A stretch of 64,000 bases of DNA. Origin: Achatina immaculata. Its lineage: Eukaryota; Mollusca; Gastropoda; Stylommatophora; Achatinidae. The stretch is taken from positions 33,340,645-33,404,644 of the forward strand of contig CM019707.1 of assembly GCA_009760885.1 (NCBI GenBank). The letters run 5' to 3'. A program made the position numbers and the translations under genes. Of this stretch, positions 37,826 through 64,000 are shown in pieces (position 1 is the first letter of the stretch; the number at the start of each line of letters is the position of its first letter). Below the pieces are notes generated by a model. That model worked only from the letters and a program-made list of their open reading frames with translations, was not told the DNA's origin and made no database searches.

Positions 37826-38311
37826 AAACTAGGAAAAATGTAGGAACAGCTTTATTACTTAACAACCACAAAGTTGTGACGTTTCGGCGTGAGGCTTAAT
37901 CATACAAAAACATACAGGACGAAGAAACAGAGAGAGAGTAAATAAAGTATAGATTCACAAGAATGCTATTAAAAAGAAAAAAGAAATTTTTTTAAAAGAG
38001 TATTTAGCTGAAGATTGTAAGATGTATCTTGTCCAGCTGTGTGTGTCAGAAATGGATTTAGTAGAAAGTGGAGACCGTTTAAACAGGGACCTGTGATATG
38101 TGGTCGGTGTGTTGTAACTGGGGGTGGTGGATGTGGAGCCTGAGAGAGGAGAGATAGTGATACAATGTTGACCTAGCCAGGAGAAATTGAAACAGATGAT
38201 TGGGTAAAATGGGTAGCAAAGTGATGCTGTGAGGAGGTGTGAAAAGTAAGAAGGGGTGGAGCATTACTGCAGTGCTTCGTGTATAGTTATATACTTATAC
38301 ACTAATTATTG
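37826..38311 (-). mobile_element. Penelope-like 3' region (no coding), copy 1
   Basis: Non-satellite segment. On the minus strand it contains GATTAAGCCTCACGCCGAAA then CGTCACAAC, close to the motif in the Penelope 3' UTRs, and a C/T-rich stretch (38079-38264) like those UTRs. No GIY-YIG coding sequence is present, so the family link rests on the motif. Near-identical copies are at 50096-50582 and, truncated, at 42281-42504. Confidence 0.5.
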
Positions 38312-41300
38312 TGTGTTACTATGTATTCCTGTGTTCTTCTTCTCACATCAAACCATGCAGTGAATCCATCTATGTATGCCTGCCTTCTTCTTCTCACACC
38401 AAAACATGCAATAAAGCCATCTATTTAAGTCTGTGTTCTACTTCTCACACAAAACCATGCATTGAAGTTATCTATGTATGCTTGTCTTCTTCATTTCACA
38501 CCACATCATGCAGTGATGTCAACTATCTATGCCTGTGATAATGTTCTCACACAAAACCATGCAGTGAGGTCATCTATGTATGCCTGTCTTCTTCTTCTTC
38601 TCACACCAAAACATGCAGTGATATAAACTATCAATGCCTGTGCTGTTTGTCTCACACAAAACCATGCAGTGATGCAATCTATGTAAAATTGTCATTTTCT
38701 TATCACACCAAACCATGCAGTGAGATCATCTATGTATGCCTGTCTTCTTCTTCTTCTTCTCACAGAGCCATGCAGTTAGATTATCTATGTATGCCTGTCT
38801 TCTTTTTCTTACACCAAACCATACAGTGAAGCTATCTATGTATGTTTGTTTTCTTCTTCTAAAATCAAAGCATGTACTGATGCCACCTATGTATGTTTGT
38901 GTTCTTCTTCTAACACCAAACCATGTACTGAAGCCATCTATGTATGTCTGTGTTCTTTTTCTCACAACAAAACATCCAGTGAAGTCATGTTTGTATTTAT
39001 ATGTTCTTCTTCTCACACCAAACCATGCAGTGAAGCCATCTATGAATTCCTGATTACTTCTTCTCACATGAAACCATACAGTGAAGTCATTCATGTATGA
39101 CTATGTTCATCTTATCATAGCGAATTATACAGTGAAGTCATCTATGAATGTCTGTGTCCATCTTTCGTATCAAACCAACTGTGAAGTCAGCTATGTATAT
39201 CTGTTTTCTTCCTCTCGTATCAAACCATGCTTATATATATATATGTCTGTGTACTTTTTAATCACATGAAACAACGCATTGAAGTCATCTATATATGACT
39301 GTGTTCTTCTCACACCATACCGTGCAGTGAGACCATCTATGAATGTCTGTCTTCTTTTCTCACAAAGAAAGCCATCTATGTATGTCTGTGTTCTTCTTCT
39401 CACACAAAACCATGCATTGAAGTTATCTATGTATGCCTGTCTTCTTCTTTTCACACCAAAACATGCAGTGATGTCAACTATCTATGCCTGTCTTCTTCTT
39501 TTCACACAAAACCATGCAGTGATGTCAACTATCTATGCCTGTCTTCTTCTTTTCACACCAAAACATGCAGTGATGTAAACTATCAATGCCTGTGCTGTTC
39601 GTCTCACACAAAACCATGCAGTGATGCAATCTATGTAAAATTGTCATTTTCTTATCACACCAAACCATGCAGTGAGATCATCTATGTATGCCTGTCTTCT
39701 TCTTCTTCTCACACAGAGCCATGCAGTTAGATTATCTATGTATGCCTGTCTTCTTTTTCTTACACCAAACCATACAGTGAAGCTATCTATGTATGTTTGT
39801 TTTCTTCTTCTAAAATCAAAGCATGTACTGATGCCATCTATGTATGTTTGTGTTCTTCTTCTAACACCAAACCATGTACTGAAGCCATCTATGCATGTCT
39901 GTGTTCTTTTTCTCACAACAAAACATCCAGTGAAGTCATGTTTGTATTTATATGTTCTTCTTCTCACACCAAACCATGCAGTGAAGCCATCTATGAATTC
40001 CTGATTACTTCTTCTCACATGAAACCATACAGTGAAGTCATTCATGTATGACTATGTTCATCTTATCATAGCGAATTATACAGTGAAGTCATCTATGAAT
40101 GTCTGTGTCCATCTTTCGTATCAAACCAACTGTGAAGTCAGCTATGTATATCTGTTTTCTTCCTCTCGTATCAAACCATGCTTATATATATATATGTCTG
40201 TGTACTTTTTAATCACATGAAACAACGCATTGAAGTCATCTATATATGACTGTGTTCTTCTCACACCATACCGTGCAGTGAGACCATCTATGAATGCCTG
40301 TCTTCTTTTCTCACAAAGAACCATGCAGTGAGGCCATCTATGCATGCCTGTCGTCTTCTTCTCACACCAAACTATGCAGTGAGATTATCTATGTATGCCT
40401 ATCTTCTTCTTGTCACACAAAACCATACAATGAAGCCATCTATTTATGCCTGTCTTCTTCTTGTCACACAAAACCATACAATGAAGCCATCTATTTATGC
40501 TTGTCTTCTTCTTGTCACACAAAACTATACACTGACGCCATCTATTTATGCCTGTCTTCTTCTTGTCACAGAAAACCATACAATGAAGCCATCTATGTAT
40601 GCCTGTCTTCTTCCTGTCACACAAAACCATACAGTGAAGCCATCTATTTATGCCTGTCTTCTTCTTGTTCTCCTCATACCAAACCATGCAGTGAGGTCTA
40701 AAGCAACCATGCAGTGAAGTCATCTATATATGCCTGTATTTTTTCTTCTCACACAAAACCATGCATTGAAGTAATCTATGTATGTCTGTATTCTTCTTCT
40801 CACACCAAATCATGCAGTGAGGTCATCTATGTATGCCTGTCTTTTTTTCCTTTCATATAAAACCATACAGTGATGTCATATATATTGTATGGCTTTTTTC
40901 ATCTGCTTACACCAAACTATGCAGTGAAGTCATTCTTCTTCTTCTCACACAGAGCCATGTAGTGAGGCCATCTATGCATGCCTGTGTTCTTCTTCTCACA
41001 CCAAACCATGCAGTTATGTTATCTATGTATGCCTGTCTTCTTTTTCTCACACCAAACCATACAGTGAAGCTATCTATGTATGTTTGTCTTCTTCTTCTAA
41101 AATCAAAGCATGTACTGATGCCATCTATGTATGTCTGTCTTTGTTTTCTCACAAGAAACAACAAAGTGAAGTCATCTATGTATGTGTGTGTTCTTATTCT
41201 CACTTGACACAATACAGCTCAGCCATCTATGAATGTCTTTCTTCTTCTTATCACACAACACCATTCGGTGAGGTCATCTATGTATGCTTGTCTTCTTCTC

Positions 41301-42280
41301 ACACCAAACAAAGTAATGAGGTGCTCTATGTATGACTGTCTTATTCTTCTCACACCAGACCACACATTGAGATAATCTACATCAATGCATGTGTTCTTCT
41401 TCTCACACCAAACCATTCAGTGAAGCCATCTATGAATGCATGTCTTCTTTTTCTCATGCCACATCATGCAATGAAGTCTTCTATGTATGTCTGTCTTCTT
41501 TTTCTCACACCAAACAATGCAGTGAGTTCATATATCCATGCCTCTCTTTTTCTTCTCACACCAGACTGTGCTGTCATGCCATCTATGTATGTCTGTCTTC
41601 TTTTTCTCACACCAAACCATGCAATGAGACCATATATGTATGTCTGTGTTCTTCTTCTCGCACAAAACCATCCAGTGAGGTCATTTATGTATTTCTGTTT
41701 TCTCCTTCTCGTAGCAAACAATGCAGAGAAGCCATTTTTATATGTCTGTGTTCTTTTTCTCAAACCAAACCATTCATTGAAATAATCTATTTATGTCTGT
41801 GTTCTTCTTCTCACACTATACCATGCATTGAAGCCATGTATGTATGCCTGTCTTCTTCTTATCATGCCAAACCATGCAGTGAGGTCATCTATGTATGTCT
41901 GTATTCTTCTTATCACACCAAACCATGCAGCAAAGCCATCTATGTATGCATGTCTGATTCTTCTCAAAACAAGCTATGAGGTCATCTATGTATGCCTATG
42001 TGTGTCTCCTCATACCAAACCATGCAGTGAGGTCTAAAGCAACCATGCAGTGAAGTCATCTATATATGCCTGTGTTTTTCTTCTCACAGGAAAACATGCA
42101 CTGAGTTCATCTATGTACGCATGTCTTCTTCTTCTCCTCCCACCAAACCATGCAGTTAGGTCGTCTATGTATGCCTGTGTTCTTTTCTCACACCAAACCA
42201 TGCAATTAAGTGATCTATGTATGTCTGTATTCTTTTTATCACACCAAACCATGCATTGAAGTCATCTGTGTATGCCTGTT
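38312..42280. repeat. 51-bp megasatellite, segment 8, with 951-bp duplication
   Basis: Contains an internal tandem copy: 38617-39367 matches 39568-40319 at an offset of 951 bp. 40400-40670 is a homogeneous sub-run with cttcttcttgtcacacaaaa. At 40697 the ~4.5-kb unit begins again (matching 36189 onward, offset 4506, then 4455 after loss of one monomer). Confidence 0.95.
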
Positions 42281-42504
42281 AAACTAGGAAAAATGTAGGA
42301 ACAGCTTTATTACTTAACAACCACAAAGTTGTGACGTTTCGGCGTGAGGCTTAATCATACAAAAACATACAGGACGAAGAAACAGAGAGAGAGTAAATAA
42401 AGTATAGATTCACAAGAATGCTATTAAAAAGAAAAAAGAAATTTTTTTAAAAGAGTATTTAGCTGAAGATTGTAAGATGTATCTTGTCCAGCTGTGTGTG
42501 TCAG
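42281..42504 (-). mobile_element. Penelope-like 3' region, copy 2, truncated at the block junction
   Basis: Identical to 37826-38049 up to gctgtgtgtgtcag, where it joins the decapeptide-repeat DNA of the 5.3-kb block without a recognisable target duplication. Confidence 0.55.
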
Positions 42505-43648
42505 AGATAAGACACACTCAGACATCGTGGTGAGAGATAAGACACACTCAGACTTCGTGGTGAGAGATAAGACACACTCAGAGTTCGTGGTGAGAGAAAA
42601 GACACACTCAGACATCGTGGTGAGAGATAAGACACACTCAGAGTTAGTGGTGAGAGATACGACACACTCAGACTTCGTGGTGAGAGATAAGACACACTCA
42701 GAGTTCGTGATTAGAGATAAGACACAGTCAGACTTCGTGGTGAGAGATAAGACACACTCAGAGTTCGTGATGAGAGATAAGACACACTCAGACTTCGTGG
42801 CGAGAGATATGACATATTTAAATTTCATGGTGAACAGCCCCTTACAGAAGACAGGAGATTTTGACTATTTACTTGATCGTGTGTATGGCGTGGTTTGTGC
42901 CAGGAGAATAACCAGTGTACGACACTACTTCGTTGAAGACCATGTAATGATGTGCCACGGCCTCTATATCGAATATGTGCTTGCATTTCACGTTCTGAGT
43001 GGCGATTATATGCTGCCTTGTCAGGTTCTCTCTATCGGTTATATGTTGGTGTGTCACACAGTTTGCAATACTTATTTGCGTTGTGAAGATTGTACACACA
43101 TCAAGAATAAAGAAACTTCAGGAAGTAAAGATCATGCTGAGACAAAAATGAACTTAAGACTCATCTCCAGTACAGGATGCTTCTGTGTAGATATGAAAAT
43201 AAACGACCTGGACAGTGTTGAAGATCTTACAAAGCTATCTATATCCAGGGAGCACAAAAGCTTTGGTATGACATGTCTTAGGCGAGAATGTTTTTTCCTA
43301 CCTGTGTTACATCAAACATACGATAAAGCCACTATTTGGGCTAAATCTTGGCGAAACAAAAGGCCAAGAGAAGGCCTGAAAGCAGGTGTACGAACACATG
43401 ACAGCAACGGCGTCTCTGACAGCTGCAAGACGAACGCCAACAACCCCAGGCGTGGTTGCTACGTCATAAACAGCGGCCGTATGAAGTGTAGAAATGCTGC
43501 AAGCGGAGACAGCTACTCGACTAAACCCGTCTCGAACTTGGAGACAAACAGCAAAGGAGATCAGAACCAAAGTCAAATCACAGACGCTAGGAAAGGTACG
43601 TTTAATTGTCTATTTCATCATCGTCATCACAGTTTGCCGTTTCCTTAA
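42505..43648 (+). pseudogene. Truncated copy of the decapeptide-repeat frame
   Basis: Starts inside the 30-bp array (about ten RDKTHSDFVV-type units) and continues through the unique C-terminal part to the same stop as the 57.1-59.8 kb frame. The N-terminal ~285 codons, including the 6- and 21-residue repeats, are missing and replaced by Penelope-like DNA. The frame has no stop, but it has lost its natural start, so I call it a partial copy. The candidate splice donor aaag/gtacgt at ~43595 is retained. Confidence 0.7.
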
Positions 43649-44014
43649 CCATCACAATCATTGTTTGAGAGCCATATTGCCATAGATATCTGTGCTAGAG
43701 TTGTTTGAGGGGGTTGGGAGTCTAATGGCTCTGGCCAAGACCCTATATGACCTATTCTTGGTTGTATCTTGTATCATACTGTTGCCCTCATAGAGCTTGG
43801 CACGTGGCTTCAAGTCGTCCCCATTTCTGCTTAGTCTTCCGTGAAGCATGTTTCAGAAGTCCACTCGGAAATATTAAATATAAACCAGCAGATATCAACT
43901 CCCCATCCGCTATGTGACATCGTGTCTCAAAATAATCACGCATCTGCCTCAGAAATCAAACTTTCAGAGTTCATAGTGATTAATAAGATGATAAGGACAC
44001 ACGCATTACCATCT

Positions 44015-44420
44015 CTTATGTGTAAATCTGTTCTCCAGTGTAAATCTGTTCTCAAGTGTAAATCTTTTCTCTAGTGTAAATCTGTTCTCCAGTGTAAATC
44101 TGTTCTCTAGTGTAAAACTGTTCTTTAGTGTAAATCTTTTCTTTAGTGCAAATCTGTTATCCAGTGTAAATCTGTTCTCTAGCGTAAATCTGTTGTTTAA
44201 TGTAAATTTGTTCCCTAGTATAAATCTGAGATGCCTACAGGAGAGCTGTTAGAGAGGAAAAGTTCCGCAAGGGACGTTCAAATGACTGACTGATTGACTG
44301 AGCAAAAATCTTTTCTGCAATGTAAATGTGTTCTCTAGCGTACAATTGTTCTCTAGATTACAACTGCCCTCTAGGGTAAATCTGTTCTCTAGCTTACAGC
44401 CGCCCTCTAGTGTCAGTCTT
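44015..44420. repeat. 18-bp tandem repeat (block copy 1)
   Basis: gtaaatctgttctctagt recurs about every 18 bp from 44023 to 44225. It becomes more diverged from 44310 to 44420, with a LINE tail inserted between. Confidence 0.9.
44226..44300 (+). mobile_element. Very short LINE 3' end (block copy 1)
   Basis: gcctacaggagagctgttag and gttccgcaagggacgttcaa match the last ~50 bp of the 4083/20986 family, followed by a tgactgactgattgactg tail. It is inserted into the 18-bp repeat. Confidence 0.75.
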
Positions 44421-45360
44421 TTCCTCAACTTTGCATGCATTTTGACATTTTCGACCAATGTTTATTTTACCTGTAGGTAGAATGGAGCGTGGGGAAAGCA
44501 GAAGGTGTCCAAATCTCACTAACAGGTTGTGGCACACATTTCCCCCACTATTAGTAACTGAACTGTCTCTCCCTTGACTGTGTATGATCATTCATGTGAA
44601 TGAAAGCCTTCTCTTCTTTACCGGCCTCTTCGTCCTGTATGTTATTAATACGGGTGATGCCTAAGCCACAATGGTACAGGTGTGTGTTCCGCCAGGGAAT
44701 AATGTTGTTCTTACTTTTAAAAAAAAAACTTTAAAAAAGTATGTTTGTCTGCTCTCACTTCAGCGGCTCTTTAAACAAATGTATTCATATGTTTAGTTTT
44801 AGATATTTATACACAAGAAATGTTCGTGTGTTCAGATAGTCTGATTGTAGGAGTTTTGATTTTGCGATCTAGAGCCACGCTTATTTTAAAGCACGGGATC
44901 AAAGTTAAAGGCATCTGATTGGATGAATGTTAGCCAGTCAACTTATCCGTAACATCTGTGTTCCTGTGAGTACATGTGCTGAAAGTGTGGATCAGATCTG
45001 ACAGAAGCCATGAGCAAGCTGATCACAGCCATGAAACTTCTGTCATCATCATCATCATCATCACAAATACACACATACACAGGCAGCTCGGTTGAAACCT
45101 TCTGCTCTAATTATCTGCAGGATTTTGAGTTTTCGGCTGTTCTTTCAAAATGACCGTTCTATAGAAAGGGCACCCAATAAATGCGTGTTCGGGGCAGATT
45201 ACGAAAGCAAAGAATATATCTACCTGCACAGGTAGGCAAACTAAAATGCATAGCCCTGCGTGGGGATGTTCTCTGTTTTCTTCTGACTGAAGAAAAGACC
45301 GACTCAATCTCATCATTAAATAGATTTCCACCTGTGTAAACAGTATGACAAAAATAAAAT
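44421..45360. other. Unassigned DNA in block copy 1
   Basis: No gene recognised. A short (atc)n run at 45041-45063 and a caca run follow. A minus-strand frame at 45107-45331 is open for ~74 codons without a motif. Confidence 0.45.
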
Positions 45361-45414
45361 GCCACCACCACCACCACCACCACCATCACCATCATCATCA
45401 TCATCATCATCATT
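45361..45414. repeat. (CAC)n(CAT)n microsatellite (block copy 1)
   Basis: Trinucleotide cac run passing into atc run. It translates as poly-His or poly-Met, which is an artefact. Confidence 0.95.
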
Positions 45415-45446
45415 TTAATGGCTGCTTGTGTACTCATATGGCACAG

Positions 45447-45586
45447 AGAGTGAAGGGAAACAGGACAATCTGTCAGATGAAAGTGAGACCGACGAGGAAG
45501 AAGAACTCCAAGAAAAAAGGGCACGGATTACTAAAAAAATTGAGTATCTAGATAATTTTCTTATTATCTGGCACGCCGCGTTTTTG
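45447..45586 (+). CDS. Candidate internal exon, acidic-then-basic, unknown gene
   Basis: 140-nt open segment between a cacag acceptor (45442-45446) and a tttttg/gtgagtag donor (45587). It encodes SEGKQDNLSDESETDEEEEL, then QEKRARITKKIEYLDNF and LIIWHAAFL: a strongly acidic run, a basic patch and a short hydrophobic end. The composition looks coding and the donor is near consensus, but the upstream tract is only partly pyrimidine, no neighbouring exon is visible and the family is unknown. Identical in the second block (61599-61738). Confidence 0.3.
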
Positions 45587-45711
45587 GTGAGTAGTTTATT
45601 GTTAAAGGTTTAGATTATGTATTATGTTGAATGTGTGATACATTTCTTGCATAGGAGGTGGGTCCAGCTTCTGTTTTCCATAGGAACTTCGTATAAACTA
45701 CACCACCACAG

Positions 45712-45712
<1 letters not shown>

Positions 45713-45810
<98 letters not shown>

Positions 45811-45830
45811 GCCTGCCTGCCTGCGTAATG
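45713..45830. repeat. (ATCT)n then (GCCT)n microsatellite (block copy 1)
   Basis: About 24 tetranucleotide units. The copy at 61865-61998 is longer, which accounts for the change in offset between the blocks. Confidence 0.97.
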
Positions 45831-46005
45831 CTTACCTACTGGCGTTGGCAATCATAACTCTCACAACTGTCTGTCTGTCTGTCTGTCTAATGCTATCATA
45901 ACTCTTCACAACTGTCTGTCTGTCTGTCTAATGCTATCATAACTCTCACAACTGTCTGTCTGTCTAATGCTATCATAACTCTCACAACTGTCTGTTCTGA
46001 GTTTC
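45831..46005. repeat. Decayed ~35-45-bp repeat with (TGTC)n (block copy 1)
   Basis: taatgctatcataactctca followed by caactgtctgtctg recurs four times with varying tgtc number. The first unit contains actggcgttggcaatcat, similar to the last bases of the RTE-like LINE tail (actggcgttggctattat), so the repeat may have grown from a LINE end. Confidence 0.7.
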
Positions 46006-46625
46006 CTCTATGAGATGTTCTGGTGTCCAGTTTCCATGCCGTCTTGCTAATTCACCCGGGATTTTCTCTCCCTGTTTATATCATCCTCCCCCGCCCCCTA
46101 AACTTTCCTTTTGTCCTGTTGCTCAAGTTTGCTTTTTTCTCATGACATATCCTTTAAATTTAGATTGTCTTTTCCCGACTGTATCTGTCTTCTCGAATCC
46201 ATCTCTCTCAACATTTCTTCTTTTGATTTTCTTGCCGTTCAGGGTATTCTTAAATTCTTGTAAGAAACCACATCCCCGTAGCTTCCAGACGTTGCTGTAT
46301 CTCTTTAGTAACCGTCCAGGCGCCACATCCGTCCGTAGATCAGAACTAGCTCTATGTACACTGGAGCACCATTTTCCTTACACTTAGTGACAGTGGTTTA
46401 TTGCACAAATTACTTTTCATTATTTGGAACGTTAGCTTCTGCTGTTAATCTCTGATAGGCGTCTTCCATCTGACATCAGCATTGTTTCTATAGATACTCG
46501 AACATGCGTCTGTGCCATTTTCTTTTATTTTGCATTGATGGATCTCTCTTTTCCTGAAGACGACCGTAACTTCAGTTTACTTATTATCCAAGATTAGTTC
46601 TTTTCTTTCCCTTGAAATATATATC
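46006..46625. other. Unassigned, C/T-rich (block copy 1)
   Basis: A 125-codon plus-strand frame (46010-46387) is open but starts near a microsatellite and reflects pyrimidine richness. No motif recognised. Confidence 0.4.
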
Positions 46626-46970
46626 AGTCAGTCAGTCAGTCAGTCATTTGCATGTCCCTTGCGGAACTGTGCCTGTCTAACAGCTCTCCTGTAGGCCTCC
46701 TGGTTGAAAGCAAGATGCCCTGCTGCTGATGCATCCAACTGCAGTTTATCAACGATGTCTTGCAGTCATCTTCACCTTTGTCTTCCTCTCTTTCTTTTTC
46801 CCGTTATGTACCCTTCCAAGACGGTCTTCTCTAAATAATCCTGACGTTTAATTTTGTGTGCAAAATATTTAAGTTTTCTTTGTTTAATCCTCTTTACTAG
46901 CCAGCCTTCTTTAATATTAAGTTCTTGTAGTATGGACATATTTGTCCATGATATTTGAATAACTCTTGAA
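46626..46970 (-). mobile_element. LINE 3' end, left arm of a head-to-head pair (block copy 1)
   Basis: The minus strand ends in a catgcaaatgactgactgac tail. Upstream are the KLKYF, GKRKRGR and AYRRAV counterparts of the 20986 family, with frameshifts. It meets the plus-strand copy at ~46970-46980 in an AT-rich junction. Confidence 0.8.
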
Positions 46971-46979
46971 ATATATAAA

Positions 46980-47445
46980 CGTTATAAATAAAGAATCTGT
47001 GGAGAGGAGCAGACAGAACTACACAAATAAGATTTTTAAGGGCATGCATTTTTCCCATCGCAACATATGCCTGAAGAAGAATGTAAGTGCTACAGAAGAG
47101 TTCTCCAAATATCGTGGACACAAAAAAGAACAAATATATCTATACTACAAGAGCTTAATATTGAAGAAGGCTGGCTAGTAAAGAGGATTAAAGAGAGAAA
47201 ACTTAAATATTTTGGATACATTAAACGTCATGATAATTTAGAGAAGACCGTATTGGAAGGATACATAATGGGAAAAAGAAAAAGAGGAAGACTAAAACGA
47301 AGATGGCTGCAAGACATCGTTGATGATCTGCAAATGGATGCATCAGCAGCAGGCCATCTTGCTCACAACTGAGAGGCCTACAGGAGTGCTATTAGGGAGG
47401 CAAAGTTCCACAAGGGACAAGCAAATGAATGAATGAATGAATATA
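46980..47445 (+). mobile_element. LINE C-terminal fragment, right arm (block copy 1)
   Basis: Begins at the NLWRGADRT region (aagaatctgtggagaggagc), lacks ~54 bp relative to the 20986 copy, then stays open 47067-47372: CYRRVLQISWTQKRTNISIL, KLKYFGYIKRHDNLEKT, GKRKRGRLKRRWLQDIVDD. It ends with a caagcaaatgaatgaatg tail. With the minus-strand copy to its left it forms an outward-tailed inverted pair. Confidence 0.85.
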
Positions 47446-47697
47446 AATAAAATAATATTTTGCTATATTGTTCCTGTATCCTTTCATCGCTAATTTAGTA
47501 GTGAAATATTTCTAAAATCTGCACCACGTAGTAGCAAAAATACACTAAATCTGCGGATGTTTTCTAGTGTTTTGATACGGCGATTTGAAATTAGAAGTCG
47601 TTTGATGACGAAAGACAAGAAAAATTGTATGAAAAGTGAAATAATACAATAAAAACCGACAAAAGCAACAATATTTCGCCAAAAAGTTCCCTTTTTT

Positions 47698-47815
47698 AAA
47701 ACCATCAGTTCAAGTGAGCTGTTCAATAAACCATCAGTTCAAGTGAGCTGTTCAGTAAACCATCAGTTCAAGTGAGCTGTTCAATAAACCATCAGTTCAA
47801 GTGAGCTGTTCAATT
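47698..47815. repeat. 29-bp tandem repeat, four units (block copy 1, right edge)
   Basis: aaaccatcagttcaagtgag followed by ctgttcaat recurs four times and ends at the junction with 51-bp DNA. The same four units end block copy 2 at the window edge. Confidence 0.95.
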
Positions 47816-50095
47816 TCTTGTTCTTTCTTTTTCTCACACCAAACAATTCAGTGAGGTCATATATGCATGCCTGTCTTCTTCTTCTAACACCAAACTGTGG
47901 AGTCAAGCCATCTATGTATATCTGTCTTCTACTTCTCACACCAAACCATGCAATGAGACCATATATGTATGTCTGTGTTCTTCTTCTAACACCAAACCAT
48001 GCAATGAAGTCATCTATGTATGTCTGTTTTCTTCTTCTCACAGAAAACCATCCAGTGAGGTCATGTATGTATTTCTGTTTTCTCCTTCTCATACCAAACC
48101 ATGCAGAGAAGACATTTCTATGTGTCTGTGTTCTTTTTCTCAAACCAAACCATCCATTGAAATAATCTATTTATGCCTGTGTTCATCTTCTCACACTATA
48201 CAATGCATTGAAGCCATCTATGTATGCCTGTCTTCTTCTTATCACAGCAAACCTTGCAGTGAGGTCATCTATGTATGTCTGTATTCTTTATATCACACCA
48301 AACCATGCAGCAAAGCCATCTATGTATGCATATCTGATTCTTCTCAAAACAAGCTATGCAGTGAGGTCATCTATATGTGTTTATTCTCTTCTCACACAAA
48401 ACCATGCAGTGAGATCATCTATGTATGCCTATGTTTGTCTCCTCATACCAAACCATGCAGTGAGGTCTAAAGCAACCATGCAGTGAAGTCATCTATATAT
48501 GCCTGTATTTTTTCTTCTCACACAAAACCATGCATTGAAGTAATCTATGTATGTCTGTATTCTTCTTCTCACACCAAATCATGCAGTGAGGTCATCTATG
48601 TATGCCTGTCTTTTTTTCCTTTCATATAAAACCATACAGTGATGTCATATATATTGTATGGCTTTTTTCATCTGCTTACACCAAACTATGCAGTGAAGTC
48701 ATTCTTCTTCTTCTCACACAGAGCCATGTAGTGAGGCCATCTATGCATGCCTGTGTTCTTCTTCTCACACCAAACCATGCAGTTATGTTATCTATGTATG
48801 CCTGTCTTTTTCTCACACCAAACCATACAGTGAAGCTATCTATGTATGTTTGTTTTCTTCTTCTAAAATCAAAGCATGTACTGATGCCATCTATGTATGT
48901 TTGTGTTCTTCTTCTAACACCAAACCATGTATTGAAGCCATCTATGTATGTCTGTCTTTGTTTTCTCACAAGAAACAACAAAGTGAAGTCATCTATGTAT
49001 GTGTGTGTTCTTATTCTCACTTGACACAATACAGCTCAGCCATCTATGAATGTCTTTCTTCTTCTTATCACACAACACCATTCGGTGAGGTCATCTATGT
49101 ATGCTTGTCTTCTTCTCACACCAAACAAAGTAATGAGGTGCTCTATGTATGACTGTCTTATTCTTCTCACACCAGACCACACATTGAGATAATCTACATC
49201 AATGCATGTGTTCTTCTTCTCACACCAAACCATTCAGTGAAGCCATCTATGAATGCATGTCTTCTTTTTCTCATGCCACATCATGCAATGAAGTCTTCTA
49301 TGTATGTCTGTCTTCTTTTTCTCACACCAAACAATGCAGTGAGTTCATATATCCATGCCTCTCTTTTTCTTCTCACACCAGACTGTGCTGTCATGCCATC
49401 TATGTATGTCTGTCTTCTACTTCTCACACCAAACCATGCAATGAGACCATATATGTATGTCTGTGTTCTTCTTCTCACAGAAAACCATCCAGTGAGGTCA
49501 TTTATGTATTTCTGTTTTCTCCTTCTCGTAGCAAACAATGCAGAGAAGCCATTTTTATATGTCTGTGTTCTTTTTCTCAAACCAAACCATTCATTGAAAT
49601 AATCTATTTATGTCTGTGTTCTTCTTCTCACACTATACCATGCATTGAAGCCATGTATGTATGCCTGTCTTCTTCTTATCATGCCAACCATGCAGTGAGG
49701 TCATCTATGTATGTCTGTATTCTTCTTATCACACCAAACCATGCAGCAAAGCCATCTATGTATGCATGTCTGATTCTTCTCAAAACAAGCTATGAGGTCA
49801 TCTATGTATGCCTATGTGTGTCTCCTCATACCAAACCATGCAGTGAGGTCTAAAGCAACCATGCAGTGAAGTCATCTATATATGCCTGTGTTCTTCTTCT
49901 CACAGGAAAACATGCACTGAGTTCATCTATGTACGCATGTCTTCTTCTTCTCCTCCCACCAAACCATGCAGTTAGGTCGTCTATGTATGCCTGTGTTCTT
50001 TTCTCACACCAAACCATGCAATTAAGTGATCTATGTATGTCTGTATTCTTTTTATCACACCAAACCATGCATTGAAGTCATCTGTGTATGCCTGT
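47816..50095. repeat. 51-bp megasatellite, segment 9 (third ~4.5-kb unit)
   Basis: Matches 35.55-37.82 kb at offsets near 12275 with a handful of small indels (for example a 3-bp loss in cttctttttctcac near 48808 and one lost base near 49685). Confidence 0.95.
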
Positions 50096-55442: not shown

Positions 55443-57136
55443 GTTATCTTAGAAAAAAAAAACTTACAATATTTCAAATTTGTTTCTGAACTTTAGGTCT
55501 TTTTTTCCGTAAAACTCACACCACAAAAATACAGTGTGAAAGTACATCGGTAATTCCCTAATCTTCAGCGATGTCACACGGTGCAGAATCTCCACTGTCC
55601 GAGCTGCTGTGACCGTTTGGTGCGACCATTTGTCCAAGTATCTCAAACACACAAACTTTAGGACTTGTTTACTAAATCCGTCAGTTTGTTGGTTGTATAA
55701 ATTTATTATGAATGCCAGTGCGTGTAGTTTTAACAGAAAAGGCTCTTTCAGCAAAATAAATGTTCGCATAAACATCAAAAACAATTATTTTTCATAATCT
55801 AGTGTAATGTTATTCATTTTAAAAGTAAATATTCTCAGCATCAAGCTGACGTAGCGAGAATAATCATTATGAAGTTAAAACGTTTTTTTTAAAAATGTGT
55901 TTGTAGAACGTTCAAATATTTCAATTAACAGACGGTCGTAATCACACGAAGAGTCGTATATTCATGTCCCTAATCAAAGTTTACAATTAAGAACTTTGTA
56001 TAAAATAGTCATTGAAATAAATTGTAGATTTTGAAGTATTTTGAGAAAAATAAATAAGATAAGAGATGTGGTTTGTGTGTTCGGGCCATTGCTGATGAAC
56101 AGTAACGATTTCTGATGGTCATAAATTATCTTAAATGTTAACTAAATGTGTTATAAATAACAGTTTGATTGACAGCCTCGAAGACCTGAGATACCCTGGA
56201 ACACTGACAGCCAGGGCTGACACGGAATGATCCCACACGAGATCATCTTTGAAAGAATAAAACTCACACGAATGGACTTTGTCTAAAACTATAAAAGAAG
56301 TTTCAAAGAACGGCGAACAAACGATCAGCGGACAACTGCAATAAGTGAGGCTATGCCTGAAGTTAATACTGGAAGCTTTTACCAGCAGCAAGGTTTTGGG
56401 GTTCTACAGGTTTCATTTCTCACAGGTAAAAAGCTGTTCACCGATACGGCCCCATATTTATCTTATATCTTATATCTTTTATCTTATATCTTATATCCTT
56501 CCCTTGCTGTTAAATGTCACATAGTGCTCGCAAGGTAGTTCGCCAATTTTTCCTGTTTTCGGCGAGCTTTTCAACCTTGCCAAGGGATTTTATGCCTATT
56601 AAATTGACCTCTCTTAACAATGTCCTCTTTAGAGTTTCACGTGGTCGGCCTCATACAGTCTCATAATATTGGCTCAGCTATTATTCGGAAAAAGAAACAA
56701 GTTATTGTCAGTACGAAATCCTCCGTAGTTTTCAACGGTAAAAACGTAGGAATCTACAACATAGATACTGACTGTGTTTTCAGCAAGAGTTTATCTGCTC
56801 ACATATTGCGCGCAAGGGAACCAAGAGCTCAAATATAAGTGTTCAAATTGATACAAATTTCCTCAGGCTATCACGCGGAGTTTTTTGAGACCAAATTTTT
56901 CCCCAAGGCTATATTGTCCCCCTCAGGAGAGAACATTTTAGTCCCTCGGGGCATTAAAGTCATTCTTTTAGTCCAGGAACAATTCTGTGGGAAGGAAGGC
57001 AGCCTCAGGCGTACCACAGGCAAAATACTTGACACATAACATAATCCTGACTTGTCTGCCAAACTCATACCCTGTAATGACAACGACAATGAGCACAAAT
57101 CTGAAACAATGATTCTAGTAATAACTACATTTCCTG
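55443..57136. other. Unassigned DNA upstream of the repeat-protein frame
   Basis: No family recognised. A short ATG frame at 56353 (MPEVNTGSFYQQQGFGVLQV) reaches a tctcacag/gtaaaaag donor-like site at ~56426 and could be a first exon of the downstream gene; this is speculative. 56459-56502 is a tcttata-type repeat. Confidence 0.35.
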
Positions 57137-59800
57137 AAAGTCCATGTGCTAGAAATATCAGAAAAAAACTACTGTGCAGGTATACAGACAGGCACATGTC
57201 TTGAGAGTGTTTATAAAACCAATGATGAGATCCCAGTCAGTGATGAGATCCCAGTCAGTGATGAGATTCCAGGTCGAGAAACTGTACTACAAGCTACGAC
57301 TCTTCTTTTTGTTTGGGTAATTTCCAGTGTCTTTGAATTTGCCTCTTTTGGATCCAGAATGTTGGATACAACAAGTTACTCTTACCTTACCTTGAGAAAA
57401 ATAAAATCACATGTTTATTTATTTATTCTCTGTAGCAACAATGCAAACATGGAAAGTGTAAGGGAAAGCGAATGCATGGGAAAAGTCAATATCAGCGGTT
57501 TAATAGTAACACTAAAATCCAGAAGAGAAAATGTTGAAACAAACCCGATTACTTTCAGCAACATCACCTGTGATATAAGGAACACTAAAGACATAAACAG
57601 CCACGTCAAAGTGATGACCGGTGTGGAGAATATTGAATTTATTGCTGGTTTCCTGAACACAGGTGACTGTAGGAACTTGTATTTGTTTGTTAAGTGGAAC
57701 TTACCTGCGTCTGGTGGTCACCTGAAGATGGCATGCATCATGAAAGATGAAGAACTTTTTAGCTTACCTGTGTCTGGTAGTCACCTGAAGATTGCAGGTA
57801 TCAGGAAAGTTGAAGAATTCTTTAACTTGCCTGTGTCTGGTAGTCAAATGAATATTGCAGGTAGCAGGAAAGGTGAAGAACGTTTTAGCTTAACTGTGTC
57901 TGGTATTCACTTGAAGATTGCAGGTGTCAGAAAAGGTAAAGAGTTTTATAGCTCCTTGTGTTGGGGAAACAGAAAAATTCTAACGGACATTTTAAGAGCT
58001 GAGACACACTCAGACATCGTGGTGAGAGATAAGACACACTCAGACTTCGTGGTGAGAGATAAGACACACTCAGAGTTCGTGGTGAGAGATAAGACACACT
58101 CAGACTTCGTGGTGAGAGATAAGTCACACTCAGACTTCGTGGTGAGAGATAAGACACACTCAGACATCGTGGTGAGAGATAAGACACACTCAGACTTCGT
58201 GGTGAGATATAAGACACACTCAGACATCGTGGTGAGAGATAAGACGCACTCAGACTTCGTGGTGAGAGATAAGACACACTCAGAGTTCGTGGTGAGAGAT
58301 AAGGCACACTCAGAAATCGTGGTGAGAGATAAGACACACTCAGACTTCGTGGTGAGAGATAAGACACACTCAGAGTTCGTGATGAGAGATAAGACACAGT
58401 CAGACTTCGTGGTGAGAGATAAGACACACTCAGACATCGTGGTAAGAGATAAGACACACTCAGACTTCGTGGTGAGAGATAAGACACACTCAGAGTTCGT
58501 GGTGAGAGAAAAGACACACTCAGACATCGTGGTGAGAGATAAGACACACTCAGAGTTGGTGGTGAGAGATACGACACACTCAGACTTCGTGGTGAGAGAT
58601 AAGACACACTCAGAGTTCGTGATAGGAGATAAGACACAGTCAGACTTCGTGGTGAGAGATAAGACACACTCAGACATCGTGGTGAGAGATAAGACACACT
58701 CAGACTTCGTGGTGAGAGATAAGACACACTCAGAGTTCGTGGTGAGAGAAAAGACACACTCAGACATCGTGGTGAGAGATAAGACACACTCAGAGTTAGT
58801 GGTGAGAGATACGACACACTCAGACTTCGTGGTGAGAGATAAGACACACTCAGAGTTCGTGATTAGAGATAAGACACAGTCAGACTTCGTGGTGAGAGAT
58901 AAGACACACTCAGAGTTCGTGATGAGAGATAAGACACACTCAGACTTCGTGGCGAGAGATATGACATATTTAAATTTCATGGTGAACAGCCCCTTACAGA
59001 AGACAGGAGATTTTGACTATTTACTTGATCGTGTGTATGGCGTGGTTTGTGCCAGGAGAATAACCAGTGTACGACACTACTTCGTTGAAGACCATGTAAT
59101 GATGTGCCACGGCCTCTATATCGAATATGTGCTTGCATTTCACGTTCTGAGTGGCGATTATATGCTGCCTTGTCAGGTTCTCTCTATCGGTTATATGTTG
59201 GTGTGTCACACAGTTTGCAATACTTATTTGCGTTGTGAAGATTGTACACACATCAAGAATAAAGAAACTTCAGGAAGTAAAGATCATGCTGAGACAAAAA
59301 TGAACTTAAGACTCATCTCCAGTACAGGATGCTTCTGTGTAGATATGAAAATAAACGACCTGGACAGTGTTGAAGATCTTACAAAGCTATCTATATCCAG
59401 GGAGCACAAAAGCTTTGGTATGACATGTCTTAGGCGAGAATGTTTTTTCCTACCTGTGTTACATCAAACATACGATAAAGCCACTATTTGGGCTAAATCT
59501 TGGCGAAACAAAAGGCCAAGAGAAGGCCTGAAAGCAGGTGTACGAACACATGACAGCAACGGCGTCTCTGACAGCTGCAAGACGAACGCCAACAACCCCA
59601 GGCGTGGTTGCTACGTCATAAACAGCGGCCGTATGAAGTGTAGAAATGCTGCAAGCGGAGACAGCTACTCGACTAAACCCGTCTCGAACTTGGAGACAAA
59701 CAGCAAAGGAGATCAGAACCAAAGTCAAATCACAGACGCTAGGAAAGGTACGTTTAATTGTCTATTTCATCATCGTCATCACAGTTTACCGTTTCCTTAA
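57137..59800 (+). CDS. Large repeat-protein frame (6-, 21-, 10- and 11-residue repeats), unknown family
   Basis: Open without a stop from 57137 to 59800. The first in-frame ATG is 57359; the upstream part may be exon sequence entered by splicing. In order: three DEIPVS units (57224-57277); a hydrophobic stretch, TTLLFVWVISSVFEF; unique sequence (ITFSNITCDIRNTKDINSH); four 21-residue units of the LPVSGSHLKIAGIRKVEEFF type (57701-57952); about 32 decapeptides RDKTHSDFVV (58003-58964), alternating hydrophobic and charged; five 11-residue units such as HVLSGDYMLPC and QVLSIGYMLVC (59075-59239); then a Cys-rich, later basic tail. About 285 codons on either side of the decapeptide array are non-satellite and open only in this frame, which random DNA rarely gives. 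gctaggaaag/gtacgt at ~59747 is a good splice donor, so the printed C-terminus may be intronic. I recognise no homologue. A membrane or secreted role is conceivable but unproven. Confidence 0.45.
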   Translation, partial: KVHVLEISEKNYCAGIQTGTCLESVYKTNDEIPVSDEIPVSDEIPGRETVLQATTLLFVWVISSVFEFASFGSRMLDTTSYSYLTLRKIKSHVYLFILCSNNANMESVRESECMGKVNISGLIVTLKSRRENVETNPITFSNITCDIRNTKDINSHVKVMTGVENIEFIAGFLNTGDCRNLYLFVKWNLPASGGHLKMACIMKDEELFSLPVSGSHLKIAGIRKVEEFFNLPVSGSQMNIAGSRKGEERFSLTVSGIHLKIAGVRKGKEFYSSLCWGNRKILTDILRAETHSDIVVRDKTHSDFVVRDKTHSEFVVRDKTHSDFVVRDKSHSDFVVRDKTHSDIVVRDKTHSDFVVRYKTHSDIVVRDKTHSDFVVRDKTHSEFVVRDKAHSEIVVRDKTHSDFVVRDKTHSEFVMRDKTQSDFVVRDKTHSDIVVRDKTHSDFVVRDKTHSEFVVREKTHSDIVVRDKTHSELVVRDTTHSDFVVRDKTHSEFVIGDKTQSDFVVRDKTHSDIVVRDKTHSDFVVRDKTHSEFVVREKTHSDIVVRDKTHSELVVRDTTHSDFVVRDKTHSEFVIRDKTQSDFVVRDKTHSEFVMRDKTHSDFVARDMTYLNFMVNSPLQKTGDFDYLLDRVYGVVCARRITSVRHYFVEDHVMMCHGLYIEYVLAFHVLSGDYMLPCQVLSIGYMLVCHTVCNTYLRCEDCTHIKNKETSGSKDHAETKMNLRLISSTGCFCVDMKINDLDSVEDLTKLSISREHKSFGMTCLRRECFFLPVLHQTYDKATIWAKSWRNKRPREGLKAGVRTHDSNGVSDSCKTNANNPRRGCYVINSGRMKCRNAASGDSYSTKPVSNLETNSKGDQNQSQITDARKGTFNCLFHHRHHSLPFP
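57224..57277 (+). repeat. 18-bp repeat, three units, in frame
   Basis: gatgagatcccagtcagt x2 plus gatgagattccaggtcga; encodes DEIPVS, DEIPVS, DEIPGR. Confidence 0.95.
57701..57952 (+). repeat. 63-bp repeat, four units, in frame
   Basis: Units start at 57701, 57764, 57827 and 57890, exactly 63 bp apart, although base identity between units is only moderate. Length is better conserved than sequence. Confidence 0.92.
58003..58964 (+). repeat. 30-bp repeat array, about 32 units, in frame
   Basis: gagataagacacactcagac or cagag is followed by ttcgtggtga, atcgtggtga or gttagtggtga. Two alternating types (D-F/I-VV and E-F/L-VV) form a longer pattern, with a ~180-bp block repeated around 58500 and 58740. 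One minus frame (LSVSYLSPR units) and another (ECVLSLTTKS units) are also open because 30 is a multiple of three. No spacers, so not CRISPR. Confidence 0.97.
59075..59239 (+). repeat. 33-bp diverged repeat, five units, in frame
   Basis: Codon-aligned units at 59075, 59108, 59141, 59174 and 59207 begin His/Gln and mostly end Cys (HYFVEDHVMMC, HGLYIEYVLAF, HVLSGDYMLPC, QVLSIGYMLVC, HTVCNTYLRCE). DNA identity is low but spacing is exact. Duplicated at 42923-43087. Confidence 0.75.
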
Positions 59801-60166
59801 CCATCATAATCATTGTTTGAGAGCCATATTGCCATAGATATCTGTGCTAGAGTTGTTTGAGGGGGTTGGGAGTCTAATGGCTCTGGCCAAGACCCTATAT
59901 GACCTATTCTTGGTTGTATCTTGTATCATACTGTTGCCCTCATAGAGCTTGGCACGTGGCTTCAAGTCGTCCCCATTTCTGCTTAGTCTTCCGTGAAGCA
60001 TGTTTCAGAAGTCCACTCGGAAATATTAATATAAACCAGCAGATATCAACTCCCCATCCGCTATGTGACATCGTGTCTCAAAATAATCACGCATCTGCCT
60101 CAGAAATCAAACTTTCAGAGTTCATAGTGATTAATAAGATGATAAGGACACACGCATTACCATCTC

Positions 60167-60572
60167 TTATGTGTAAATCTGTTCTCCGGTGTAAATCTGT
60201 TCTCAAGTGTAAATCTGTTCTCTAGTGTAAATCTGTTCTCCAGTGTAAATCTGTTCTCTAGTGTAAAACTGTTCTTTAGTGTAAATCTTTTCTTTAGTGC
60301 AAATCTGTTATCCAGTGTAAATCTGTTCTCTAGCGTAAATCTGTTGTTTAATGTAAATTTGTTCCCTAGTATAAATCTGAGATGCCTACAGGAGAGCTGT
60401 TAGAGAGGAAAAGTTCCGCAAGGGACGTTCAAATGACTGACTGATTGACTGAGCAAAAATCTTTTCTGCAATGTAAATGTGTTCTCTAGCGTACAATTGT
60501 TCTCTAGATTACAACTGCCCTCTAGGGTAAATCTGTTCTCTAGCTTACAGCCGCCCTCTAGTGTCAGTCTTT
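60167..60572. repeat. 18-bp tandem repeat (block copy 2)
   Basis: Counterpart of 44015-44420 with single-base changes (ttctccagtg/ttctccggtg, aatcttttctc/aatctgttctc). Confidence 0.9.
60377..60452 (+). mobile_element. Very short LINE 3' end (block copy 2)
   Basis: Same fragment and tgactgactgattgactg tail as at 44226-44300. Confidence 0.75.
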
Positions 60573-61512
60573 TCCTCAACTTTGCATGCATTTTGACATT
60601 TTCGACCAATGTTTATTTTACCTGTAGGTAGAATGGAGCGTGGGGGAAAGCAGAAGGTGTCTAAATCTGACTAACAGGTTGTGGCACACATTTCCCCCAC
60701 TATTAGTAACTGAACTGTCTCTCCCTTGACTGTGTATGATCATTCATGTGAATGAAAGCCTTCTCTTCTTTACCGGCCTCTTCGTCCTGTATGTTATTAA
60801 TACGGGTGATGCCTAAGCCACAATGGTACAGGTGTGTGTTCCGCCAGGGAATAATGTTGTTCTTACTTTTAAAAAAAAAACTTTAAAAAAGTATGTTTGT
60901 CTGCTCTCACTTCAGCGGCTCTTTAAACAAATGTATTCATATGTTTAGTTTTAGATATTTATACACAAGAAATGTTCGTGTGTTCAGATAGTCTGATTGT
61001 AGGAGTTTTGATTTTGCGATCTAGAGCCACGCTTATTTTAAAGCACGGGATCAAAGTTAAAGGCATCTGATTGGATGAATGTTAGCCAGTCAACTTATCC
61101 GTAACATCTGTGTTCCTGTGAGTACATGTGCTGAAAGTGTGGATCAGATCTGACAGAAGCCATGAGCAAGCTGATCACAGCCATGAAACTTCTGTCATCA
61201 TCATCATCATCATCACAAATACACACATACACAGGCAGCTCGGTTGAAACCTTCTGCTCTAATTATCTGCAGGATTTTGAGTTTTCGGCTGTTCTTTCAA
61301 AATGACCGTTCTATAGAAAGGGCACCCAATAAATGCGTGTTCGGGGCAGATTACGAAAGCAAAGAATATATCTACCTGCACAGGTAGGCAAACTAAAATG
61401 CATAGCCCTGCGTGGGGATGTTCTCTGTTTTCTTCTGACTGAAGAAAAGACCGACTCAATCTCATCATTAAATAGATTTCCACCTGTGTAAACAGTATGA
61501 CAAAAATAAAAT
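60573..61512. other. Unassigned DNA in block copy 2
   Basis: Same content as 44421-45360. No gene recognised. Confidence 0.45.
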
Positions 61513-61566
61513 GCCACCACCACCACCACCACCACCATCACCATCATCATCATCATCATCATCATT
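61513..61566. repeat. (CAC)n(CAT)n microsatellite (block copy 2)
   Basis: Identical to 45361-45414. Confidence 0.95.
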
Positions 61567-61598
61567 TTAATGGCTGCTTGTGTACTCATATGGCACAG

Positions 61599-61738
61599 AG
61601 AGTGAAGGGAAACAGGACAATCTGTCAGATGAAAGTGAGACCGACGAGGAAGAAGAACTCCAAGAAAAAAGGGCACGGATTACTAAAAAAATTGAGTATC
61701 TAGATAATTTTCTTATTATCTGGCACGCCGCGTTTTTG
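61599..61738 (+). CDS. Candidate internal exon (block copy 2)
   Basis: Same 140-nt acidic/basic segment with cacag acceptor and tttttg/gtgagtag donor as at 45447-45586, with no difference between copies. It lies ~1.8 kb downstream of the repeat-protein frame on the same strand, so it could be a later exon of that gene, but phase and intermediate exons cannot be established from sequence alone. Confidence 0.3.
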
Positions 61739-61863
61739 GTGAGTAGTTTATTGTTAAAGGTTTAGATTATGTATTATGTTGAATGTGTGATACATTTCTT
61801 GCATAGGAGGTGGGTCCAGCTTCTGTTTTCCATAGGAACTTCGTATAAACTACACCACCACAG

Positions 61864-62006
<143 letters not shown>

Positions 62007-62190
62007 AATGCTTACCTACTGGCGTTGGCAATCATAACTCTCACAACTGTCTGTCTGTCTGTCTGTCTAATGCTATCATAACTCTTCACAACTGTCTGTC
62101 TGTCTGTCTGTCTAATGCTATCATAACTCTCACAACTGTCTGTCTGTCTAATGCTATCATAACTCTCACAACTGTCTGTTCTGAGTTTCC
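62007..62190. repeat. Decayed ~35-45-bp repeat with (TGTC)n (block copy 2)
   Basis: Counterpart of 45831-46005 with one more tgtc unit. Confidence 0.7.
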
Positions 62191-62809
62191 TCTATGAGAT
62201 GTTCTGGTGTCCAGTTTCCATGCCGTCTTGCTAATTCACTCGGGATTTTCTCTCCCTGTTTATATCATCCTCCCCCGCCCCCTAAACTTTCCTTTTGTCC
62301 TGTTGCTCAAGTTTGCTTTTTTCTCATGACATATCCTTTAAATTTAGATTGTCTTTTCCCGACTGTATCTGTCTTCTCGAATCCATCTCTCTCAACATTT
62401 CTTCTTTTGATTTTCTTGCCGTTCAGGGTATTCTTAAATTCTTGTAAGAAACCACATCCCCGTAGCTTCCAGACGTTGCTGTATCTCTTTAGTAACCGTC
62501 CAGGCGCCACATCCGTCCGTAGATCAGAACTAGCTCTATGTACACTGGAGCACCATTTTCCTTACACTTAGTGACAGTGGTTTATTGCACAAATTACTTT
62601 TCATTATTTGGAACGTTAGCTTCTGCTGTTAATCTCTGATAGGCGTCTTCCATCTGACATCAGCATTGTTTCTATAGATACTCGAACATGCGTCTGTGCC
62701 ATTTTCTTTTATTTTGCATTGATGGATCTCTCTTTTCCTGAAGACGACCGTAACTTCAGTTTACTTATTATCCAAGATTAGTTCTTTTCTTTCCCTTGAA
62801 ATATATATC
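62191..62809. other. Unassigned, C/T-rich (block copy 2)
   Basis: Same content as 46006-46625. No motif recognised. Confidence 0.4.
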
Positions 62810-63155
62810 AGTCAGTCAGTCAGTCAGTCATTTGCATGTCCCTTGCGGAACTGTGCCTGTCTAACAGCTCTCCTGTAGGCCTCCTGGTTGAAAGCAAGAT
62901 GCCCTGCTGCTGATGCATCCAACTGCAGTTTATCAACGATGTCTTGCAGTCATCTTCACCTTTGTCTTCCTCTCTTTCTTTTTCCCGTTATGTACCCTTC
63001 CAAGACGGTCTTCTCTAAATAATCCTGACGTTTAATTTTGTGTGCAAAATATTTAAGTTTTCTTTGTTTAATCCTCTTTACTAGCCAGCCTTCTTTAATA
63101 TTAAGTTCTTGTAGTATGGACATATTTGTCCATGATATTTGAATAACTCTTGAAA
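62810..63155 (-). mobile_element. LINE 3' end, left arm of head-to-head pair (block copy 2)
   Basis: Counterpart of 46626-46970 with the cagtcagtcag tail on its left. Confidence 0.8.
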
Positions 63156-63165
63156 TATATATAAA

Positions 63166-63631
63166 CGTTATAAATAAAGAATCTGTGGAGAGGAGCAGAC
63201 AGAACTACACAAATAAGATTTTTAAGGGCATGCATTTTTCCCATCGCAACATATGCCTGAAGAAGAATGTAAGTGCTACAGAAGAGTTCTCCAAATATCG
63301 TGGACACAAAAAAGAACAAATATATCTATACTACAAGAGCTTAATATTGAAGAAGGCTGGCTAGTAAAGAGGATTAAAGAGAGAAAACTTAAATATTTTG
63401 GATACATTAAACGTCATGATAATTTAGAGAAGACCGTATTGGAAGGATACATAATGGGAAAAAGAAAAAGAGGAAGACTAAAACGAAGATGGCTGCAAGA
63501 CATCGTTGATGATCTGCAAATGGATGCATCAGCAGCAGGCCATCTTGCTCACAACTGAGAGGCCTACAGGAGTGCTATTAGGGAGGCAAAGTTCCACAAG
63601 GGACAAGCAAATGAATGAATGAATGAATATA
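63166..63631 (+). mobile_element. LINE C-terminal fragment, right arm (block copy 2)
   Basis: Counterpart of 46980-47445, open 63253-63558. The atatata junction has two extra bases relative to copy 1. Confidence 0.85.
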
Positions 63632-63883
63632 AATAAAATAATATTTTGCTATATTGTTCCTGTATCCTTTCATCGCTAATTTAGTAGTGAAATATTTCTA
63701 AAATCTGCACCACGTAGTAGCAAAAATACACTAAATCTGCGGATGTTTTCTAGTGTTTTGATACGGCGATTTGAAATTAGAAGTCGTTTGATGACGAAAG
63801 ACAAGAAAAATTGTATGAAAAGTGAAATAATACAATAAAAACCGACAAAAGCAACAATATTTCGCCAAAAAGTTCCCTTTTTT

Positions 63884-64000
63884 AAAACCATCAGTTCAAG
63901 TGAGCTGTTCAATAAACCATCAGTTCAAGTGAGCTGTTCAGTAAACCATCAGTTCAAGTGAGCTGTTCAATAAACCATCAGTTCAAGTGAGCTGTTCAAT
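63884..64000. repeat. 29-bp tandem repeat, four units (block copy 2, window edge)
   Basis: Same four aaaccatcagttcaagtgag units as 47698-47815. Confidence 0.95.

Follow-up and report, generated by a model that had tools for sequence, protein, structure and literature searches.

A repeat-rich reading frame of Achatina immaculata as the probable 5′ coding exon of a clustered tetraspanin-like gene

The 64,000-nucleotide stretch of Achatina immaculata DNA analysed here (the window; C24:33340645-33404644 of a 1.65-Gb genome) carries on its plus strand a frame of 891 codons without interruption (57125–59800 in the open reading frame (ORF) list of the whole window), as the original prediction had stated. 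Comparison with related loci of the same genome suggests that most of this frame belongs to a single repeat exon, denoted E1 (57436–59747, plus strand), whose 3′ limit is conserved and whose 5′ limit is an inferred one. With a probability of roughly 0.6, E1 is the large 5′ coding exon of a multi-exon gene for a tetraspanin-like membrane protein, a gene that would extend beyond the window; the open frame is probably not a stand-alone protein.

Relatives lie in one 310-kb cluster, C24:33.179-33.487 Mb. Protein searches of the genome, in which only the best candidates were scored so that the match counts are lower bounds, placed 12 of 13 and 10 of 10 matches of the two unique E1 flanks in the cluster, and a third search placed 21 of 21 there. 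The sole match off C24 among the candidates scored is a weak one on C5 (E 3.4e-4). Apart from the window copy (W, plus strand), E1 relatives lie at locus A (33179–33183 kb of C24, plus strand, in two tandem pieces) and, on the minus strand, at loci B (33483–33487 kb), C (33335–33339 kb) and D (33267 kb).

The numbers of stops and the lengths of gaps in these paralogues, rather than the periods of the repeats, indicate that the E1 frame is more than a product of chance. The original argument from periods divisible by three has less force than was given to it, and the case stands on the comparison with paralogues instead; the companion statement that other minisatellites of the window mostly have other periods was selective (the dominant satellite of the window has a 51-bp unit, likewise divisible by three). 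Over the part of E1 between its 30-bp array and its donor, the C-flank (compared at 58979–59747), 280 of the 745 sites aligned between W and B are different, and yet the homologous frame is without a stop in both W (260 codons from 58967) and B (354 codons); the other forward frames hold 15–33 stops. In a neutral simulation with 38% of the sites substituted, the whole W stretch or the whole B stretch stayed open in 0 of 5000 runs, and for shorter stretches P was 0.008 (last 149 codons of W) and 0.014 (152 codons of D). Two W–B codon columns of the coding frame contain a stop in the DNA alignment, an effect of gaps that put the two copies out of register, as W and B are each free of stops in this frame. 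The gaps between W and B measure 294, 6, 3, 3, 3 and 15 bp, plus neighbouring gaps of 1 and 2 bp. Those between W and C are the same except that 198 replaces 294, and the gap between the B and C sequences measures 96 bp. On the 3′ side of the E1 donor, in a comparison that left out A1, W2 and D, two of the eight W–B gaps are divisible by three.

Spacings within the 30-bp array follow the frame as well. All 32 in W are exactly 30 bp, the 25 in A are divisible by three (as are both of those in the examined portion of its first piece), and so are the 43 in B, where units of 27 and 30 bp are mixed; such counts are not independent events, since units spread by duplication. The stop counts and gap lengths bear out the original view of a real, fast-evolving coding frame with units of exact length. 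From the 30-bp array through the donor a coding role is well supported by these alignments; the part upstream of the array is unsettled.

Three repeat arrays would lie within E1, all read on the plus strand. A 63-bp array of 21-residue units (57700–57953) was called with 4.0 copies by Tandem Repeats Finder (TRF), and A lacks 126 bp of it, equal to two units. It is followed by the 30-bp array (57995–58966, 32.4 copies by TRF, 0% indels), with the 10-residue unit KTHSDFVVRD, and by the C-flank (58967–59747), which holds a degenerate 33-bp Cys-rich array and is open in the same frame in W, B and C. Of the four tandem repeats originally placed in the frame, those of 18, 63 and 30 bp were recovered by TRF; the 33-bp repeat has no TRF call in the window and is clear at the same place in B (9.8 copies; 11-residue unit CHILCSDYMLA) and C (6.8 copies). 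The 18-bp array (57223–57272, plus strand, 2.8 copies) is real and probably lies outside the coding exon, since it stands upstream of an acceptor-like site shared with other loci and B and C carry gaps of 18, 31 and 1 bp there.

This acceptor-like site (57435|57436) reads tttatttatttattctctgtag|C in W, and its counterparts in B and C read ...ttctttgcag|C or ...ctctttgcag|C. Past it, the exon of B and C continues in a phase other than that of W. An in-frame ATG of W at 57449, with A at −3 and G at +4, is followed by 766 codons to the donor; a second ATG, 8 bases upstream, is out of frame. In the translation of these 766 codons the best 19-residue Kyte–Doolittle window scores 1.49, below the 1.5 of the signal-peptide test; a coding exon further upstream is possible. 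Between the ATG and the 30-bp array lies a core of 225 bp (57512–57736, plus strand), 3–9% different among W, A, B and C and free of gaps, with the same local frame open in all four; we regard it as putatively coding, short of proof. Still further upstream a block at 56957–57110 (plus strand) is common to W, B, C and D at ~76% among the matches listed, in a comparison of locus pairs from which matches below 60 bp and starts at 57900–58960 were left out; crowded query stretches were left out of further comparisons for this block and for the next exon, E2. No frame conserved in all copies was seen in the block when W, B, C and D were compared, and it is possibly 5′ untranslated or regulatory. 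At its 3′ end E1 has a near-consensus donor, as the original prediction had noticed: AAAG|GTACGT after 59747, in phase 1 and conserved in five copies (W, A, B, C and D).

Comparison of W, B and D delimits candidate exons behind this donor, all on the plus strand in W. E2 (61599–61738) has the acceptor CACAG|AG in phase 1 and the donor TTG|GTGAGT in phase 0, and would encode an acidic linker and the beginning of a first membrane helix; the search behind E2 passed over short or low-complexity ORFs, as well as whatever lies upstream of E1 in the subject sequences. E3 (64098–64259), E4 (67984–68063), E5 (70887–71085) and E6 (75512–75604) lie beyond the end of the window, in window coordinates extended past it. 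The order and strand of E2–E6 are the same in W, B and D, the phases 1, 0, 0, 2 and 0 are compatible across the five introns in all three, and the junctions read are AG/GT.

The predicted product of these exons resembles animal tetraspanins (CD53, CD81, PF00335) in its sequence of helix 1, small loop, helices 2 and 3 and a large loop that begins with CCG. Strong hydrophobic stretches number three in W and D (E2/E3, E4 and E5). Helix 3 carries the expected charged residue, a Glu (E146) invariant in W, B and D, and the CCG motif follows this helix in all three (IHCCGIVDQYDF in W, AECCGIVDEYDF in B and GHCCGIVDQYDF in D). The top Pfam match of W is Tetraspanin PF00335 (E 3.7e-4, collinear over profile positions 4–152 of 225), and in the full alignment two of three members match this family. 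Against the PDB sequence set, W and two profiles match the tetraspanin CD53 best [E 0.0032 with W, 0.0075 or 0.02 with the profiles]. A genome-wide search with PF00335 at E 0.001 gave 30 matches elsewhere and none in the cluster, which marks the family as a divergent group. Its loop starts CCGIVDQYDF, with YDF after the CCG, and so differs from most vertebrate loop types, in which, according to PMC2965184, CCG is followed by [DN][WY]. The original prediction had a protein possibly secreted or membrane-linked; a membrane link is probable, and a stand-alone or secreted product finds no support, since the frame ends at a conserved donor that fits membrane exons.

Constraint differs along the gene. 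Between A and W, E5 has no difference in 199 bp and its flanks have 88 in 1237 (Fisher 1.8e-6). The membrane region is partly guarded between close copies, and the repeat exon is nearly free in sequence and held mainly in frame. Such a combination would be expected of a spacer-like or docking tail, kept open by the needed exons behind it.

Several results weigh against a tetraspanin-like gene with E1 as its first coding part. The Pfam score of 20.7 bits, for a model without the last exons, is under the curated cut-off of 32.1, and the family is therefore filed as tetraspanin-like only. In an earlier alignment with partial D and A, Tetraspanin was matched by one of four members and Pho88 by two, and in NCBIfam, which is built for prokaryotes, one of four members matched lipoprotein signal peptidase (1.3e-4). 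Of the features of animal tetraspanins, the remainder of the large loop, further loop cysteines and helix 4 could not be located in the DNA examined. B has a second candidate E2 acceptor in a different phase, and the 5′ end of E1 is unsettled. Four of 89 units of the 30-bp array in C are off-length, the other 85 spacings being divisible by three. Each of A, B, C and D has at least one break of the E1 frame relative to W. A is missing the start region and has a 28-bp deletion in the C-flank; B and C each depart from W by 1 bp at 57499 and are each 1 bp shorter than W within the 63-bp array; and D has a +1 break (W–D gaps of 6, 1 and 9 over 59245–59747), so that its C-flank frame is open only in the last 152 codons. 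These breaks partly match the frameshifts named beforehand as evidence against the frame, though they occur among paralogues rather than between alleles or sister species.

The substitution pattern adds to these points. E4 shows no extra conservation between W and A (2/51 differences, flank 18/406). The E1 C-flank is not clearly less diverged than the next intron in the same pair (27/737 against 22/396; Fisher 0.17, one-sided binomial 0.012). The ratio of non-synonymous to synonymous substitution rates (dN/dS) of E5 between W and B is 1.06 (bootstrap 0.53–2.21). For the C-flank, dN/dS was tried as proof of coding and set aside: the originally suggested calculation, run between paralogues, gave pairs at 0.34–1.17 and 0.40–1.08 with control frames at 0.28–1.36, and with coding and control frames inseparable the measure carries no weight.

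Near-neutral substitution in the C-flank and a frame break in every other E1 copy would also fit a dying gene family, in which the ancestor of W and B had a coding E1 and most or all copies, perhaps W included, are now pseudogenes or have lost E1 from the message, W being still open since its decay is young. Missing exons would point the same way, E2, E3 and E6 not being found in the A-locus DNA examined, and one further copy in the window, W2, is truncated. Against decay, W still has its ATG in frame, 766 codons without a stop and open E2–E6, B retains 909 open codons, and E5 is unchanged in A beside flanks that differ by 7%; we consider a dying family unlikely. The identity of E5 between W and A (L036 6887–7085; C24:33200388–33200585) is surprising for a locus in which E2, E3 and E6 were not found.

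It is more doubtful still that two genes are involved, E1 ending a repeat-protein gene of its own or serving as an alternative exon and the tetraspanin-like exons being normally reached from another first exon. The 5′ end of E1 is unsettled, one or more exons upstream of it are implied by the acceptor-like site at 57435, and E1 of D is short and lacks the repeat arrays. The downstream exons speak for a joint gene. No Met precedes the membrane stretch of E2 in W, B or D, and an upstream coding exon is therefore required; E1 supplies, in all three, a conserved donor in the phase that E2 needs, with order and strand the same. The openness of the 30-bp array proves little by itself, since two minus-strand frames (311 and 356 codons) are open there too, three of the six in all; non-coding minisatellite DNA whose composition happens to leave it open would account for this, for the flat distribution of change over codon positions (80, 90, 79) and for a window full of other minisatellites, the 51-bp one included, but it is disfavoured as very improbable by the absence of stops in W and B despite 38% difference, the frame-neutral gaps and the conserved donor and phases.

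Returning to E1 as the first coding part of a membrane protein gene, we infer transcription of the locus and a phase-1 splice that joins E1 to E2. The result would be a long N-terminal domain in which the 63-, 30- and 33-bp repeat segments are followed by the acidic linker and then by the membrane helices. Tetraspanin topology, with both ends facing the cytoplasm (PMC2278132), would make this domain of ~584 to 766 residues cytoplasmic. The arrays would expand and contract by whole units. As E1 must stay open for the membrane exons to be reached, selection would purge frame-breaking changes and permit amino-acid change. The likeliest role of such a tail would be that of a length-variable or flexible spacer, or of a multivalent binding (docking) tail. 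Only tentatively do we extend this to the cluster as a whole: a lineage-specific tetraspanin-like group may have gained a giant N-terminal domain, presumably on the cytoplasmic side, in which one exon supplies three kinds of tandem repeat. Selection would act on its frame and hardly on its sequence, and neighbouring genes would differ in its length by whole units of 9, 10, 11 and 21 residues.

Most tetraspanins are small and have short tails; here the ~584–766 codons of the window exon would stand in place of such a tail. Large tandem-repeat exons of the mucin and involucrin type likewise expand by whole units within one long exon, keep their frame and drift in sequence; E1 differs from them in not being rich in Ser/Thr/Pro or Gln, in preceding membrane exons and in being probably cytoplasmic. 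In the fungal Tsp2 proteins, too, helix 1 is preceded by an N-terminal tail of unusual length, 83 to 200 aa (PMC2278132); the tail in the window would be several times longer and consist largely of tandem repeats. Novelty would lie in the size, the repeats and the evolution of the cluster, a long N-terminal tail itself being known in kind. Phrase searches of the literature returned nothing on a molluscan lineage-specific expansion of tetraspanins or on unusually long N-terminal cytoplasmic tails, a result that cannot show them to be unpublished. If true, a clustered family whose first helix is preceded by so large a repeat exon would be unusual in architecture, and the neighbouring copies, which are open, short, truncated or broken, form a natural series for a minisatellite becoming or ceasing to be coding.

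No homologue of E1 at E ≤ 0.01 was found in a protein collection of which the animal share was not established (the 7999 candidates sharing most words were scored), nor any of E2–E6 among 671 candidates scored from the same collection; the case illustrates how paralogues within one genome can give meaning to a repeat ORF that has no relatives in databases. The array and the C-flank were also modelled with AlphaFold, at a mean predicted local distance difference test (pLDDT) of 31.7 and 29.1, respectively, and these models were not used. Two candidates for missing exons were also rejected. One for the fourth helix at ~78999–79133 (extended coordinates) is a dispersed repeat with at least 149 other genome matches (best E 0.003; the best 150 of 557 candidates were scored), and one for the loop near 77079 had splice phases that did not fit.

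The family has two further members. W2 (42496–47831, plus strand), which the original prediction did not mention, is a recent partial duplicate of 58649–64017: 58649–64000 equals 42496–47814 at 99.2%, and among the matches listed the similarity continues to 64017/47831. It contains 11 units of the 30-bp array, a C-flank (42815–43596) identical over 782 bp and an identical E2 copy (45447–45586; the identity spans 144 bp), and no convincing match to E3 was found for it within the window. A sixth member, F (C24:33440086-33444269, minus strand), lies between W and B and is recognised by its matches to E4 and E5 only.

W2 is flanked by arrays of the 51-bp minisatellite family (AAACCATGCAGTGAAGTCATCTATGTATGCCTGT...), which forms several arrays in 23483–54884; the largest noted runs from 32343 to 42034, with ~190 copies. 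Beside B and C there are simple (TCTG)n tracts and frames that by eye resemble the reverse transcriptase/RNase H of non-LTR (long terminal repeat) retroelements (L035 1–812 and 3674–4142; L034 407–2203; L035 909–2786). Downstream of E1 in D (L033 2386–4269), 23- and 46-bp arrays are built around GACTGTAAGAGGGCG, with minus-strand open frames of 355 and 260 codons. Elsewhere in the genome, COX1 on contig C77 can be read through in genetic code 5, and a COX1-like stretch with seven stops at C15:5088288-5088878 is likely a nuclear insertion of mitochondrial DNA.

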